A stretch of 64,000 bases of DNA from Chryseotalea sanaruensis (GTDB taxonomy: Bacteria > Bacteroidota > Bacteroidia > Cytophagales > Cyclobacteriaceae): contig NZ_BHXQ01000005.1 of NCBI RefSeq assembly GCF_003990915.1, forward strand, positions 372,001 through 436,000, read 5' to 3'. The position numbers were made by a program, and so were the translations under genes. This document shows, piece after piece, positions 9,404 through 18,298 of this stretch (position 1 is its first letter; each line of letters opens with the position of its first letter). Under the pieces are notes generated by a model. That model was not told the origin of the DNA. It saw nothing but the letters and a program-made list of their open reading frames with translations, and searched no databases.

Positions 9404-9435
9404 CAGAATCTCTCCAGAATCACTGTGTTCATTCG
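9404..9435 (+). promoter_or_regulatory. Putative response-regulator box plus -7 element (site A)
   Basis: CAGAAT at 9404 and CAGAAT at 9415 start 11 bp apart. After seven bases comes TTCATTCG at 9428, matching 4 of the 6 fixed positions of the Bacteroidota TAnnTTTG box. The same geometry occurs at sites B, C and D. It lies just before the sulfatase start codon. Confidence 0.6.
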
Positions 9436-9439
9436 CGGT

Positions 9440-11353
9440 ATGGTTAATCAATATATTTCAAAAATAGCTTCACAGAGATCTGGCCTTTTGGTTCTCATTA
9501 CTGAAATGGTTGTTGGCATTTCCTTCCTTACCAGGATATCTCTACTTATAAAATCCTCATCTTCAGTTGATTTCTCTTTTCTAAATCTAGCGGGTCTTTT
9601 TTTAATCGGATTTTTCTACGACTTGGTTAATGCTGCCTACGTTTGCATACCCATCGTGCTGTATTTATGGCTTGTACCGATTCGGATTTATGGTAAAGCC
9701 TGGCACCGTTTTGTACTCTATGGATTATTTTCAGTACTCACTTTTCTTTTACTCTTTAATGCAGTTTCTGAATATTTCTTTTGGGATGAGTTCAACACCC
9801 GTTTCAATTTTATAGCGGTAGACTATCTGGTCTATACAACAGAGGTTATCGGTAACATTCAGCAATCGTATCCTATCGGATGGATTGTGCTGGCAATTAG
9901 TGTTATCTCATTGCTGTTTGTCTACTCACTAAAAAATAAAATCAAAGGAAGTAACATTGATCAAACACTATTCTGGCAACGAACGAAGTTTGTTGGACTG
10001 TATACCGTTTTAGTAGCTATGATTTTCTTTTTCGTTACAAATAAACAACATCGCTTTAGCGATAATGCGTATGTGAATGAACTGGCAGGCAACGGACTTT
10101 ATGAATTATTTGCTGCCTATAGAAATAATGAATTGGATTATGATCAATTCTATAAACGTATTGATAGTAAAGAAGCATTTGCTTTAGTGCATCAATTACT
10201 AAAAACTTCAGATGCTGAATTTGTTGACTCAAATACAGAAGGCATCAACAGGAAAATTTCTAATGTTGGCGAGGAAAAGAAACTAAATGTAGTGTTGATA
10301 AGTGTCGAGAGCTTCAGTGCCGATTTCATGGCTTCCTTTGGCAACCAGCAAGGCATTACTCCATTTCTTGACTCTCTGGCACAACGGAGTTTACTATTTA
10401 CTAATTTGTATGCTACTGGCACTCGCACTGTCCGCGGACTGGAAGCCTTATCGCTGTGTGTGCCCCCTACACCAGGTCAGTCCATTGTTAGGCGGCCTCA
10501 TAATGAAGAGTTATTCTCCCTTGGAAAAGTGTTTAATGAAAAAGGTTATGAAAGCAAATACATCTATGGTGGATATGGTTATTTCGATAACATGAGCTAC
10601 TTTTTTGGCAACAACGGGTATAGCGTTGTGGACAGGTCTGCCATTGCCGATGAGGACATTGATTACGAAAATGTTTGGGGAGTAGCTGATGAGAATCTCT
10701 TTGAATTAGCCACAAGGGAAATGGATAAGAGTTCGGCTGAAAAACCTGTCTTTGCACACATTATGACTACTTCTAACCATAGGCCTTACACCTATCCAGA
10801 AGGAAGGATTGATATACCGTCACATACAAACAGGCAAGGTGCTGTTAAATACACCGATTATTCGATTGATAAATTCATTAAGGAATCGTCCAAAAAACCC
10901 TGGTTCAACAATACGCTTTTTGTGATTGTGGCTGACCATTGCGCATCCAGTGCGGGTAAAACGGAATTGCCGGTGAACAAGTATCACATTCCAATGCTTA
11001 TTTACGCTCCCTCTCATATTGCTCCAGGAAGAATGGAAAGGCTGATGAGTCAAATTGACATTGGGCCAACCATGTTGGGGCTTTTAAATTTCTCGTACAC
11101 CAGTAAATTTTATGGATATGATATGTTTAAACTAGAATCTGGGCGCGAACGCGCTTTTATCAGCACATACCAAAGTCTTGGATATATAAAGGGTGATAAA
11201 TTAATTGTTTTGTCTCCTCAGCTAAAAGTTGAGTCCTTTGCTGTTTATGGCAAAGAACAGGTCAAGGCAAAACCAGACCAAAATACGATTAATGAAGCCA
11301 TTGCCTGGTACCAAACTGCCAGTTATTCATTTGCTCATGGACTGATGAACTAG
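9440..11353 (+). CDS. LTA-synthase/EptA-like sulfatase-fold phospho-group transferase
   Basis: This is an integral membrane enzyme with five N-terminal helices (about residues 10-200) and a periplasmic alkaline-phosphatase/sulfatase-type domain. Metal and nucleophile motifs are present: NVVLISVESFSADF near 284, a TGTRTVRGLE segment with the candidate Thr nucleophile near 330, and VADH near 498. Relatives transfer phosphoglycerol or phosphoethanolamine to lipid head groups or glycans. An in-frame GTG at 9425 exists, but ATG 9440 gives the more usual N-terminus. Site A ends only five bases before that ATG, which implies a leaderless mRNA or a start further in (ATG 9506). The gene is followed by a response regulator and a kinase, as in pmrCAB. 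Confidence 0.8.
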   Translation: MVNQYISKIASQRSGLLVLITEMVVGISFLTRISLLIKSSSSVDFSFLNLAGLFLIGFFYDLVNAAYVCIPIVLYLWLVPIRIYGKAWHRFVLYGLFSVLTFLLLFNAVSEYFFWDEFNTRFNFIAVDYLVYTTEVIGNIQQSYPIGWIVLAISVISLLFVYSLKNKIKGSNIDQTLFWQRTKFVGLYTVLVAMIFFFVTNKQHRFSDNAYVNELAGNGLYELFAAYRNNELDYDQFYKRIDSKEAFALVHQLLKTSDAEFVDSNTEGINRKISNVGEEKKLNVVLISVESFSADFMASFGNQQGITPFLDSLAQRSLLFTNLYATGTRTVRGLEALSLCVPPTPGQSIVRRPHNEELFSLGKVFNEKGYESKYIYGGYGYFDNMSYFFGNNGYSVVDRSAIADEDIDYENVWGVADENLFELATREMDKSSAEKPVFAHIMTTSNHRPYTYPEGRIDIPSHTNRQGAVKYTDYSIDKFIKESSKKPWFNNTLFVIVADHCASSAGKTELPVNKYHIPMLIYAPSHIAPGRMERLMSQIDIGPTMLGLLNFSYTSKFYGYDMFKLESGRERAFISTYQSLGYIKGDKLIVLSPQLKVESFAVYGKEQVKAKPDQNTINEAIAWYQTASYSFAHGLMN

Positions 11354-11378: not shown

Positions 11379-12053
11379 ATGAAAATTCTTATAATCGAAG
11401 ACGAGAAACAACTGGTTAAAAGCATGGCGCAGTTCCTGCGTCAGGAAAGCTATGTGTGCGAGGTCGCTTATACTGCCAGTGAGGCCAATGAGAAAATCCT
11501 CCTTTTCGATTATGACTGCATTTTGTTGGATATATCGTTACCGGATGGAAACGGTTTGAAGATATTGGAAAAGCTAAGAGAAAATCATAAGGCTGATGGT
11601 GTAATTATGATAACAGCAAAAGGTTCTTTTGATGATCGCATAGCCGGTCTAAACCTGGGCGCTGATGATTACCTGCCTAAGCCATTTTACCTGCCTGAAC
11701 TTAGTGCGCGCATATCAGCAGTTATTAGAAGGAAACGATTTGATGGAAATAACAAAATATCATTTCATGAAATTGAAGTTGACCTACTTGGCAAAACAGT
11801 GTCCGTGAGTGGTAAGGGAATTGAATTAACCCGAAAGGAATATGACTTATTGATATTCCTGATCGCTAACAAAAATCGAGTTGTGTCAAAAAATGCGATT
11901 GCTGAACACCTCTCCGGTGATGATGCCGAACTGATGGATAAATTTGATTTTATCTATTCGCATATAAAGAACTTGAAGAAAAAATTAACGGAATCAGGGT
12001 GTGAGGATTATATTAAGACTATATATGGGCTAGGTTATAAATTTACAGCATGA
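11379..12053 (+). CDS. OmpR/PhoB-family response regulator
   Basis: The 224-residue protein has a receiver domain with the acidic pocket IIEDE, the phospho-acceptor Asp51 in LLDISLPDGNG, and the later KPF lysine (about 102). Its C-terminal winged helix (about 130-222) ends YIKTIYGLGYKF, the signature of OmpR-type regulators. It overlaps the kinase gene by the four bases ATGA. OmpR-type proteins bind tandem half-sites about 11 bp apart, exactly the spacing of the four CAGAAT boxes in this region. It is therefore the best candidate for their cognate regulator (inference). Confidence 0.92.
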   Translation: MKILIIEDEKQLVKSMAQFLRQESYVCEVAYTASEANEKILLFDYDCILLDISLPDGNGLKILEKLRENHKADGVIMITAKGSFDDRIAGLNLGADDYLPKPFYLPELSARISAVIRRKRFDGNNKISFHEIEVDLLGKTVSVSGKGIELTRKEYDLLIFLIANKNRVVSKNAIAEHLSGDDAELMDKFDFIYSHIKNLKKKLTESGCEDYIKTIYGLGYKFTA

Positions 12054-13321
12054 GATTATTACAAGTTAGTTTACGCAGTTTGCTCCTTTATTCCTTAATA
12101 CTTGTTCTGATCAGTATCCCTATTTCAATTTTCTCTATACGTCAAATTATCAATGAAGAGGTGGATGAATCACTGGCGCTGCATACAAATCAGTTTATCA
12201 AGCATATTAAAAGTTATGAGTACCTAGAAGATCTGGAAATGGATTTAAGAATCTGGGATCAGCTTTCTTATAACATTACACTTATCCCATCCGAAATAAT
12301 ATCTGCCGGACAGATGTATGAGACGGTATCCATGTATGATAGTATAGAACAAGAATTCCATCCTTTTCGAACATTATCTTCTGTTATAATTATAAAGGAT
12401 AAGCCTTACCTGCTCACGATTAAAATGTCGTTGGTAGATAATGATGAACTTGTGATGGCACTTGGAATCGTTCAAGTGATACTCATTGTACTTCTTGCAG
12501 CAGGACTACTCTTATTAAATCGCTCCTTATCCCGAAAATTATGGAAGCCATTTTACAATACCCTTAATCAATTGAAGGCTTATGAGTTGGATAAAAGTGA
12601 ATCGATTCAGCCGGAGAAGACAAATATCATCGAGTTTGATGATCTTAATAAGACAGTAAGTCACTTAACAGATCGAAACCGCAAATTGTATTTGGAACAG
12701 AAGGAATTTATTGAAAATGCCTCGCATGAGTTGCAAACTCCGTTATCTATTTTTCAATCTAAGCTGGATAATCTTATGCAAATACCTGGGCTTACAGAAG
12801 CAGGGGCAGTTACCATACTTGACCTGGAGGAAACAGCACAGCGAATGGCAAGACTCAACAAGAATTTACTCTTGCTAAGTAAAATTGATAATGATCAATT
12901 CAATGAAATCGAAGAAATAGATTTGTCAGCATTGGCAAACAAGCTGTTGTCGAATTTGAAGCCAATGGCAGATATTGACGATATATCTATTCAGGCATCT
13001 ATTAGCCCATTGTCAATAAAAGCCAACTCAACATTACTGGAGGTACTGTTGACAAATCTCTTTCATAACGCCATTCGCCACACGAATGCTAACGGAAAAG
13101 TCAACGTTAACGTTACTGATAAAGTTCTTACAGTTACCAACACTGGTAACCCGTTAAAAATGAGCGTGGAAAAAATGTTCAAACGGTTTAGTAAAGAAGG
13201 CAATGGCGAGAACAGTTCAGGTCTTGGCTTGGCAATAGTAAAAAAAGTATGCGATACATGCCGGTACAAAATCGCCTACAATTTTCAGGATGGGGTTCAT
13301 TCTTTTTCTGTGACTTTTTAA
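12050..13321 (+). CDS. Sensor histidine kinase
   Basis: The 423-residue kinase has two membrane helices (about 10-32 and 140-160) framing a short periplasmic sensor domain of about 105 residues. The dimerisation helix carries ENASHELQTPLS, with phospho-accepting His226. The ATPase domain shows NLFHNAIRHTNANG (N box) and GLGLAIVKKV (G box). No convincing separate HAMP domain stands out. It overlaps the response regulator by four bases, so the two are translationally coupled. The signal is unknown. The gene order sulfatase-regulator-kinase suggests an envelope stress or cationic-peptide/metal stimulus, by analogy with PmrB only. Confidence 0.9.
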   Translation: MRLLQVSLRSLLLYSLILVLISIPISIFSIRQIINEEVDESLALHTNQFIKHIKSYEYLEDLEMDLRIWDQLSYNITLIPSEIISAGQMYETVSMYDSIEQEFHPFRTLSSVIIIKDKPYLLTIKMSLVDNDELVMALGIVQVILIVLLAAGLLLLNRSLSRKLWKPFYNTLNQLKAYELDKSESIQPEKTNIIEFDDLNKTVSHLTDRNRKLYLEQKEFIENASHELQTPLSIFQSKLDNLMQIPGLTEAGAVTILDLEETAQRMARLNKNLLLLSKIDNDQFNEIEEIDLSALANKLLSNLKPMADIDDISIQASISPLSIKANSTLLEVLLTNLFHNAIRHTNANGKVNVNVTDKVLTVTNTGNPLKMSVEKMFKRFSKEGNGENSSGLGLAIVKKVCDTCRYKIAYNFQDGVHSFSVTF

Positions 13322-13342: not shown

Positions 13343-13374
13343 CAATTTTCATCCAGAATTAGTAAAGAATTTTG
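13343..13374 (+). promoter_or_regulatory. Putative response-regulator box plus -7 element (site B)
   Basis: CAATTT at 13343 and CAGAAT at 13354 start 11 bp apart. After seven bases comes GAATTTTG at 13367, matching 5 of 6 fixed positions of TAnnTTTG. The beta-barrel receptor starts 18 bases further on. Confidence 0.6.
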
Positions 13375-16688: not shown

Positions 16689-16720
16689 CAGAGTTGCTCC
16701 AGAATGCAATCGTTAGTTTG
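16689..16720 (+). promoter_or_regulatory. Putative response-regulator box plus -7 element (site C)
   Basis: CAGAGT at 16689 and CAGAAT at 16700 start 11 bp apart. After seven bases comes TTAGTTTG at 16713, matching 5 of 6 fixed positions of TAnnTTTG. The PepSY-like gene starts 15-21 bases further on. Confidence 0.6.
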
Positions 16721-17220: not shown

Positions 17221-17252
17221 CAGAATTTCTCCAAAATGTACTCGTAACCTTG
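17221..17252 (+). promoter_or_regulatory. Putative response-regulator box plus -7 element (site D)
   Basis: CAGAAT at 17221 and CAAAAT at 17232 start 11 bp apart. After seven bases comes TAACCTTG at 17245, matching 5 of 6 fixed positions of TAnnTTTG. The next gene, PAP2, begins 122 bases further on, behind a terminator-like hairpin. Confidence 0.55.
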
Positions 17253-17256
17253 AATC

Positions 17257-17356
17257 AGAAACACATAATGGCCAGGTCTGTGAAAATGAGTTTACGGGGA
17301 GGGTAAAAGATCAGTCATTATAGCCAGCAGGAGCAATATTTCCTGCTGGCATTTTT
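17257..17356 (+). ncRNA. Candidate small RNA or attenuated leader upstream of PAP2
   Basis: A transcript from site D would begin near 17257 and meet a strong intrinsic terminator at 17323-17356, giving an RNA of about 100 nt. It contains a 12-codon frame from ATG 17268 to TAA (MARSVKMSLRGG). The segment could be an sRNA, a leader peptide with attenuation, or simply the 3' end of the upstream transcription unit. I recognise no known RNA family. Confidence 0.35.
17323..17356 (+). terminator. Intrinsic terminator or attenuator
   Basis: The ten-base perfect stem GCCAGCAGGA / TCCTGCTGGC has an eight-base loop and is followed by ATTTTT. It ends 18 bases before the PAP2 start codon. Confidence 0.75.
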
Positions 17357-17373
17357 AGTTGAAATTCTGATTT

Positions 17374-18165
17374 ATGAAATATATGAACCCTGGCGTCCTG
17401 ATAACCCTTCTATTAATCGGAAATTTATCGGCCACTGCACAATTCAATAATAAACGTAATCCGGAGAAAACACTATCGTTTCAGAGTGTCACTTTAACAA
17501 AGCCTCCATTTTTTAAATCAAGAGGCTTTCAAAAGGCGATAGCGGTTCCCCTTTTGTTTACCGCAGCAGGTTTATATTCATTAACAGACAACGATTTACT
17601 TAATAAGTATGAGGTGCATGAAGAACGACAGGAATGGATGCCCAAGTTTCATCACCGTGCCGATGACTATCTTCAGTATACACCTATTGTTGCTGTTTAT
17701 GGATTAAATGCGTTTGGAATAAAAGGGAAGAATGATTTTGGAAACAGAACAGCTTTACTTGTAAAGTCTGAACTATTAGTAGGTGTGTTGACTTATTCAT
17801 TAAAAAGGATTACGGCAGTACCTCGTCCTGACACAAGTCAACCAACCTCCTTTCCATCAGGTCATACTGCACAAGCATTTGCAGCGGCAACGTTCATGTC
17901 AAAAGAGTACGGTCATAAAAGCATTTGGTATAGCATCGGAGCCTATACAGTAGCCACTGGTATTGGCACCATGCGGATGATGAACAATCGCCATTGGGTG
18001 TCAGATGTGTTAGTAGGTGCAGGTATCGGAATATTTTCAACAAACATTGTTTACCTCACTCATCAATACAAGTGGGGTAAGAAGAAAAGCGCAGGTCAAA
18101 CCCTGATTGTTCCTTCTTATGACGGGCAAACTGGAATGGTAAGTGTTGTGCACCGCTTTAGGTAA
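17374..18165 (+). CDS. PAP2-family phosphatase
   Basis: The 263-residue protein has an N-terminal signal-like helix and the full PAP2 active-site set. KRITAVPRP gives KX6RP, SFPSGH gives the PSGH motif, and RMMNNRHWVSD gives RX5HX3D. Hydrophobic segments surround the motifs, so it is a membrane or periplasm-facing lipid phosphatase. Family members remove phosphate from undecaprenyl pyrophosphate, phosphatidic acid or lipid A (LpxE type). Membership in the same putative regulon as an EptA-like transferase favours lipid or lipid A modification, but the substrate is not determined. Site D lies upstream, behind a terminator-like hairpin. Confidence 0.9.
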   Translation: MKYMNPGVLITLLLIGNLSATAQFNNKRNPEKTLSFQSVTLTKPPFFKSRGFQKAIAVPLLFTAAGLYSLTDNDLLNKYEVHEERQEWMPKFHHRADDYLQYTPIVAVYGLNAFGIKGKNDFGNRTALLVKSELLVGVLTYSLKRITAVPRPDTSQPTSFPSGHTAQAFAAATFMSKEYGHKSIWYSIGAYTVATGIGTMRMMNNRHWVSDVLVGAGIGIFSTNIVYLTHQYKWGKKKSAGQTLIVPSYDGQTGMVSVVHRFR

Positions 18166-18180
18166 CTTGTTTTAACTCTT

Positions 18181-18298
18181 TTCAACTTATTTCAACTTTA
18201 GTTCAACCCTATTTCAACTCAATTGCATCCATTCTAAATTGGCCGTTATTGATTTGTTGAAATGAATTCATTTATAATCATTCACAATGTTTCACAAT
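18181..18298 (+). repeat. Helically phased direct repeats (iteron-like)
   Basis: TTCAAC occurs at 18181, 18191, 18202 and 18213 (steps of 10, 11 and 11 bases). An inverted copy GTTGAA lies at 18256, and TTCACAAT occurs at 18281 and 18291. They end just upstream of the small HTH gene. Such arrays are typical of operators or replication/excision control regions. Confidence 0.55.

Follow-up and report, generated by a model that had tools for sequence, protein, structure and literature searches.

Transcription of the PAP2 membrane-lipid phosphatase gene at 17374..18165 on the forward strand of the window (the whole 64,000 nt stretch of Chryseotalea sanaruensis DNA analysed here) would, from the nearest candidate promoter, meet a terminator-like hairpin shortly before the start codon. 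The analysis covered the gene neighbourhood, the promoter, the leader RNA and the corresponding loci of relatives.

The PAP2 locus

The PAP2 gene encodes a PF01569 protein with weak similarity to LpxE, and its nearest named relatives are found in Cyclobacteriaceae and Flammeovirgaceae assemblies. Four other congeneric genomes lack a close homolog of this protein (best E 5.6e-4), which suggests that the gene was either gained by transfer in the window's genome or lost in its relatives. It belongs to a forward-strand run of genes for an LtaS-like sulfatase-fold protein, an OmpR-type response regulator (11379..12053), a sensor histidine kinase (12050..13321), an OMP beta-barrel protein, EamA, DUF1232, a PepSY-like protein (PF11396; 16742..17194) and PAP2. 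The kinase scores 445.6 bits against the NCBIfam PorY family (cut-off 350), and despite this PorY score its gene (12050-13321) overlaps that of the OmpR-type regulator. Just 3' of PAP2, three imperfect 21-nt copies containing TTCAAC are present at 18188-18230 with an 11-nt spacing.

A direct-repeat promoter module upstream of PAP2

Bacteroidota have unusual promoters and make no use of Shine-Dalgarno sequences. The -7 consensus of the phylum is TAnnTTTG according to excerpts of two reports (PMC7366714, PMC9723704). Upstream of PAP2, box D (CAGAATTTCTCCAAAAT; 17221..17237, forward strand) is a direct repeat of the CAGAAT-N5-CAGAAT type with one mismatch, presumably the site of an OmpR-type response regulator. 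It is followed at 7 nt by a -7 element of the Bacteroidota sigma-A TAnnTTTG type (TAACCTTG; 17245..17252, forward strand), from which a transcription start at 17257 on the same strand is predicted by spacing only.

A regulated promoter at this site had been proposed in the initial annotation, and the relatives bear the proposal out: at one mismatch or less, and searching the 450 nt that precede the PAP2 match, the box was found in 13 of 76 relatives, whereas ten control patterns, made by reversal, permutation or a change of spacing, gave none each. The 13 loci are non-independent in that L104 and L109 have the same box and L052, L053, L054, L056 and L075 form a related set. Offset 7 is occupied by a T(A/T)nnnTTG element in seven of the 13 boxed PAP2 loci, and offset 6 in one more. 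Site D combines a direct-repeat box, a fixed spacing to the -7 element and conservation before the same gene. Counted within the window alone the motif is not above chance (5 versus 3.75 expected); the weight of box D comes from its conservation in relatives. We conclude that box D belongs to a predicted promoter with good comparative support, probably of the response-regulator type.

Relatives of the response regulator (>50% identity) are encoded in 10 of the 13 boxed loci; as they also occur in 26 of the 63 unboxed loci, proximity ties the box to the regulator only modestly, and binding by this regulator is presumed. The Riemerella PhoP motif, most conserved as TTTAACA in the part of the report consulted (PMC9603813), does not match the box.

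Four CAGAAT-N5-CAGAAT-type repeats (0 or 1 mismatch) in the window stand before the LtaS-like, OMP, PepSY-like and PAP2 genes. Box A (9404..9420, forward strand), before the LtaS-like sulfatase-fold gene, has a poorer -7 region (TTCATTCG) and counterparts before the LtaS-like gene in L052, L054 and L056. Box B (13354..13370, forward strand; one mismatch), before the OMP beta-barrel gene, has a poor -7 element (TATACGAT), and box C (16689..16705, forward strand), with a -7-like TTAGTTTG at 7 nt and conserved in L052 and L054, is the probable promoter of the PepSY-like gene. The counterparts of boxes A and C in L052 and L054 have a T-rich -7 element at unchanged spacing.

When one mismatch is allowed, a somewhat narrower version of the pattern has 21 sites in the window's own genome versus 6 for its reversed form. 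Three of the 21 are boxes A, C and D, and two more lie, as judged by eye, before genes of an RND-type efflux cluster; ten of the remaining 16 overlap a reading frame of at least 60 codons (hand count). The two boxes before the RND-type efflux genes (C1:617300-617316, L031; C1:623850-623866, L032) are identical (CAGAATTCCTTCAGAAT), with TTGATTTG standing 7 nt past the second, which points either to a wider regulon or to a motif shared with a paralogous regulator.

A terminator-like hairpin in the PAP2 leader

Downstream of the predicted start, hairpin P2 (GCCAGCAGGA-GCAATATT-TCCTGCTGGC; 17323..17350, forward strand) has a perfect stem of 10 bp, or 11 by another scan, and an energy of about -21 kcal/mol. 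The stem is followed directly by ATTTTT (17351..17356, forward strand), which leaves 17 nt to the ATG at 17374. The ten-bp terminator-like hairpin that had been noted before the PAP2 ATG is thus in place, with a G+C-rich stem and then a U-rich tract as in an intrinsic terminator, the tract being short (five T). Strong terminator-like hairpins in the whole window number four on the forward and five on the reverse strand, some of them one site read on both strands, versus six in total over 20 dinucleotide shuffles; a looser terminator scan of the window was not above chance (7 versus 6.6). Folds of 17253-17358 and 17257-17373 both have z = -3.9, with 0 and 1 of 200 shuffles respectively being equally stable.

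P2 is a strong hairpin in all four leaders compared (window, L052, L053 and L054), its energy ranging from -18 to -21 kcal/mol. A U-tract follows it in the window, L052 and L053 but is missing from L054 and from L056; the latter lacks P1 (see below) and builds its P2 from a different sequence (CCGGCAGAA/TTCTGCCGG; two compensated pairs by hand reading). Since the hairpin persists in L054 and L056 where the U-tract is missing, termination alone cannot account for its retention: either there is a further reason, or termination is decaying in these loci.

A covariance model trained on the leaders of the window and L053 matched, among 28 sources, L052 (E=2.7e-14) and L054 (E=4.5e-6), both outside the training pair, and left L056 and L075 unmatched. 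It found one copy in the window's own genome and matches in 14 of 390 genomes of the family at E<=0.1. The four strong matches (E<=4e-5; the own genome and, by position, L053, L052 and L054) all lie directly before PAP2, and those in the other ten genomes are weak (E 0.001 to 0.08) and mostly shorter. Two further identities for the hairpin were rejected: a bidirectional terminator, as no U-tract is seen by eye past P2 on the opposite strand and the antisense match of the model is weak (E=0.18), and a repeat element, as its pattern has a single occurrence in the own genome and is otherwise met in one IMG/VR contig (L196). A known riboswitch or RNA family was also rejected, since the leader has no Rfam match at the gathering score, only five sub-threshold snoRNA or scaRNA matches. 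In the open-access titles and abstracts searched for the box, a PepSY/PAP2 regulon or leaders of this kind, the element is not described, and the excerpts of PMC8896665 and PMC10434189 hold nothing bearing on a PAP2 leader.

Alternative folds and the short reading frame

A second stem-loop, P1 (17265..17321, forward strand), appears in MFE folds with arms 17265-17272/17314-17321 and 17275-17279/17308-17312. When the leader is cut at the U-tract, both P1 and P2 are in the MFE structures of the window, L052, L053 and L054. When it is folded up to the ATG, P2 persists in all four and P1 is kept in L052 and L053 and gone in the window and L054. Given this loss, we take P1 to be one state that the leader may adopt, likeliest in an RNA ending at the U-tract. 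Compared with shuffles, P1 alone does not stand out in the window (z -1.2) or in L053 (z -0.9), and its stability is moderate in L052 (z -2.6) and L054 (z -2.3). Three P1 pairs are changed on both sides in the alignment of the four leaders, and the consensus energy beats 500 of 500 column shuffles, for P1 alone too, a result of the sort that a hand-fitted alignment favours.

The linker from the hairpin to the ATG, U-tract included (17351..17373, forward strand), is 23 nt long and has the same length in L052, L053 and L054; in L056 it is 31 nt. In the full-leader MFE structures of the window and L054, linker bases (in the window those of its 3' part) pair with sequence 5' of P2, and the idea of an unstructured start region past P2 was dropped for this reason. 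The full fold of the L054 leader (9886-10000) pairs GTTGAGGGTTA with linker TAACCCTCAAT around P2, and this predicted pairing could be an alternative to P1 that closes off the PAP2 start region.

The possible 12-codon leader peptide from 17268 put forward in the initial annotation stood only as a reading frame (MARSVKMSLRGG and stop; 17268..17306, forward strand), which we judge not to be a leader peptide. Its counterpart has 12 codons in L053 (MCWSVVMRATGA and stop) and five in L052 (MDWLG and stop), and L054 has ACG in place of ATG. A leader-peptide attenuator was rejected because the short frame is unconserved, even though the window and L053 share the 12 codons and the same ATG.

PAP2 upstream regions in other relatives

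A looser box rule gives 17 boxed loci among the 76 relatives. In 11 of the 13 boxed loci outside the P2 group (L052, L053, L054 and L056), just 36-78 nt separate the start of the box from the 5'-most in-frame ATG, to which the distance was measured (in L116 and L121 a second ATG nearer the match would give a long leader), and the box promoter would therefore normally lead straight to PAP2. The distance is 94 nt in L069 and 126 nt in L075, whose leader differs from that of the window. A perfect hairpin of at least 7 pairs past the box is found in only one of the 13 (L062), where it has no U-tract. As boxed loci outside the clade are mostly short-leadered and hairpin-free, PAP2 looks like a direct target of the box promoter, and the leader of ~100 nt looks like an addition in the window's clade.

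Other arrangements were observed as well. PepSY and PAP2 are adjacent in L071 and L169, with no box, hairpin or terminator seen between them, and in L174 the two genes are separated by a strong terminator (GGGCCTCACACACGGAGGCCC) followed by a T-run, the box being absent there. Upstream of PAP2 in L172 and L173, a two-mismatch box is followed by a different G+C-rich hairpin (by eye) with no U-tract, perhaps an independent structured leader. There are thus several ways in which PAP2 is linked to PepSY or the box, the window's structured leader among them.

Proposed function of the leader

Our preferred reading, to which we give not quite even chances, is that the box D promoter and a cis-acting leader carrying P2 and its U5 tract as a partial terminator together set PAP2 output. 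The response regulator would activate the PAP2 promoter by binding at box D, and the transcript would begin with a leader of ~100 nt that folds into P1 and P2 in this clade. P2 and U5 would then act as a partial intrinsic terminator, at which some transcription from D, and some read-through from PepSY, would end near 17356. The terminated part derived from D would be an RNA of ~100 nt, and the remainder would continue into PAP2, such that the leader would keep PAP2 expression lower than that of its regulon partners. Comparison among relatives supports the predicted promoter module, the P2 hairpin and the place of P2 in the PAP2 leader. Weighing against the reading are the shortness of the U-tract and its absence from L054 and L056, the weak case for P1, the modest tie of box to regulator, and the loci of L071 and L169, where PepSY and PAP2 adjoin with neither box nor hairpin seen. 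The choice originally offered between an sRNA and an attenuator can be narrowed, in that a leader acting in cis is favoured because the RNA is single-copy and its four strong matches lie directly upstream of PAP2.

Termination might instead be conditional, which we consider unlikely: the P1 5' arm would pair either with the P1 3' arm, giving the terminator, or with the P2 5' arm, giving an antiterminator, according to a signal. With the P2 3' arm removed, pairing of the P1 5' arm with the P2 5' arm is indeed the MFE structure in L052 and L053; the sequence CCAG is common to the P1 3' arm and the P2 5' arm in L052 and L054; and the window and L054 have a further alternative between the linker and the P1 3' side. 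However, the antiterminator is unfavoured in the window and L054 and the linker alternative in L052 and L053, and since each is favoured in only two leaders there is no switch common to all four. The missing U-tract of L054 and the lack of an Rfam family also weigh against such an attenuator. If it did operate, and the chance is correspondingly small, PAP2 would be subject to a further control on top of the response regulator. It is likewise doubtful, to the same degree, that the clade has added an RNA switch of its own between PAP2 and a two-component promoter shared across Bacteroidota orders, in which P1, P2 and linker pairing would let a second signal decide between stopping as an RNA of ~100 nt and reading on into the lipid phosphatase gene.

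Next in order, and also improbable, is a plain 5' UTR structure in which the role of P2 is to stabilise the mRNA or to shape its start region and termination is negligible. Retention of P2 without the U-tract in L054 and, with other sequence, in L056 fits such a role, as does a linker that measures exactly 23 nt in all four leaders. In the window, L052 and L053, however, U5 stands directly past P2, where a terminator needs one, and an open start region fails in the window and L054, whose linkers are largely paired in the full-leader MFE. In Flavobacterium, start regions tend towards less pairing around -20 to +20 (PMC6847099, in excerpt).

We find it hard to credit that the main product is a trans-acting sRNA of ~100 nt belonging to the response-regulator regulon, with PAP2 living on a little read-through. 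The unit does run from promoter to terminator, is sRNA-sized and has two hairpins, but the strong matches among the 390 genomes all adjoin PAP2 and the own genome has none elsewhere, the P1 loop is poorly conserved by eye, and PAP2 would lose a promoter that apparently serves it in other genera. That P2 merely ends the PepSY transcript, as the box-free terminator of L174 could suggest, and that PAP2 has its own promoter past the hairpin is the least probable reading of all, given that box D sits between PepSY and the hairpin and that the remaining 23 nt hold by eye no conserved TAnnTTTG; a PAP2 promoter past 17356, the arrangement against which the original proposal had been set, is on the latter ground unlikely and was rejected.

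Comparison with known systems

PhoP-controlled leaders of Salmonella, for example that of mgtA, are structured and able to end transcription before the gene. Like mgtA, PAP2 has a two-component-type promoter, here a predicted one, and then a structured leader; unlike that of mgtA, the PAP2 leader has no conserved leader peptide and no known homology, and is ~100 nt long. Excerpts of PMC7815308 describe RNA 3' ends inside E. coli 5' UTRs that yield short RNAs and point to regulation of the downstream gene; compared with these premature-termination 5' UTRs, the PAP2 leader is known from sequence prediction alone and lies behind Bacteroidota promoters. Within the same phylum, 64 structured 5' transcribed regions, some with no Rfam match, are reported for Flavobacterium psychrophilum (PMC9723704), and the PAP2 leader resembles them, although the section describing them names no PAP2 leader. 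Intergenic sRNAs of B. thetaiotaomicron such as GibS have their own start and an intrinsic terminator in the portion of the report consulted (PMC7366714); the window's unit differs from sRNAs of this type in directly adjoining a gene which, in relatives, is served by this promoter. In one clade, the direct-repeat module that precedes PAP2 in several Bacteroidota groups is linked here to proposed RNA-level control, and its leaders, which may or may not have the hairpin and may or may not have the U-tract, make up a natural series on the gain and loss of premature termination behind a two-component promoter. The PAP2 leader would be a further case of an already known type of regulation.
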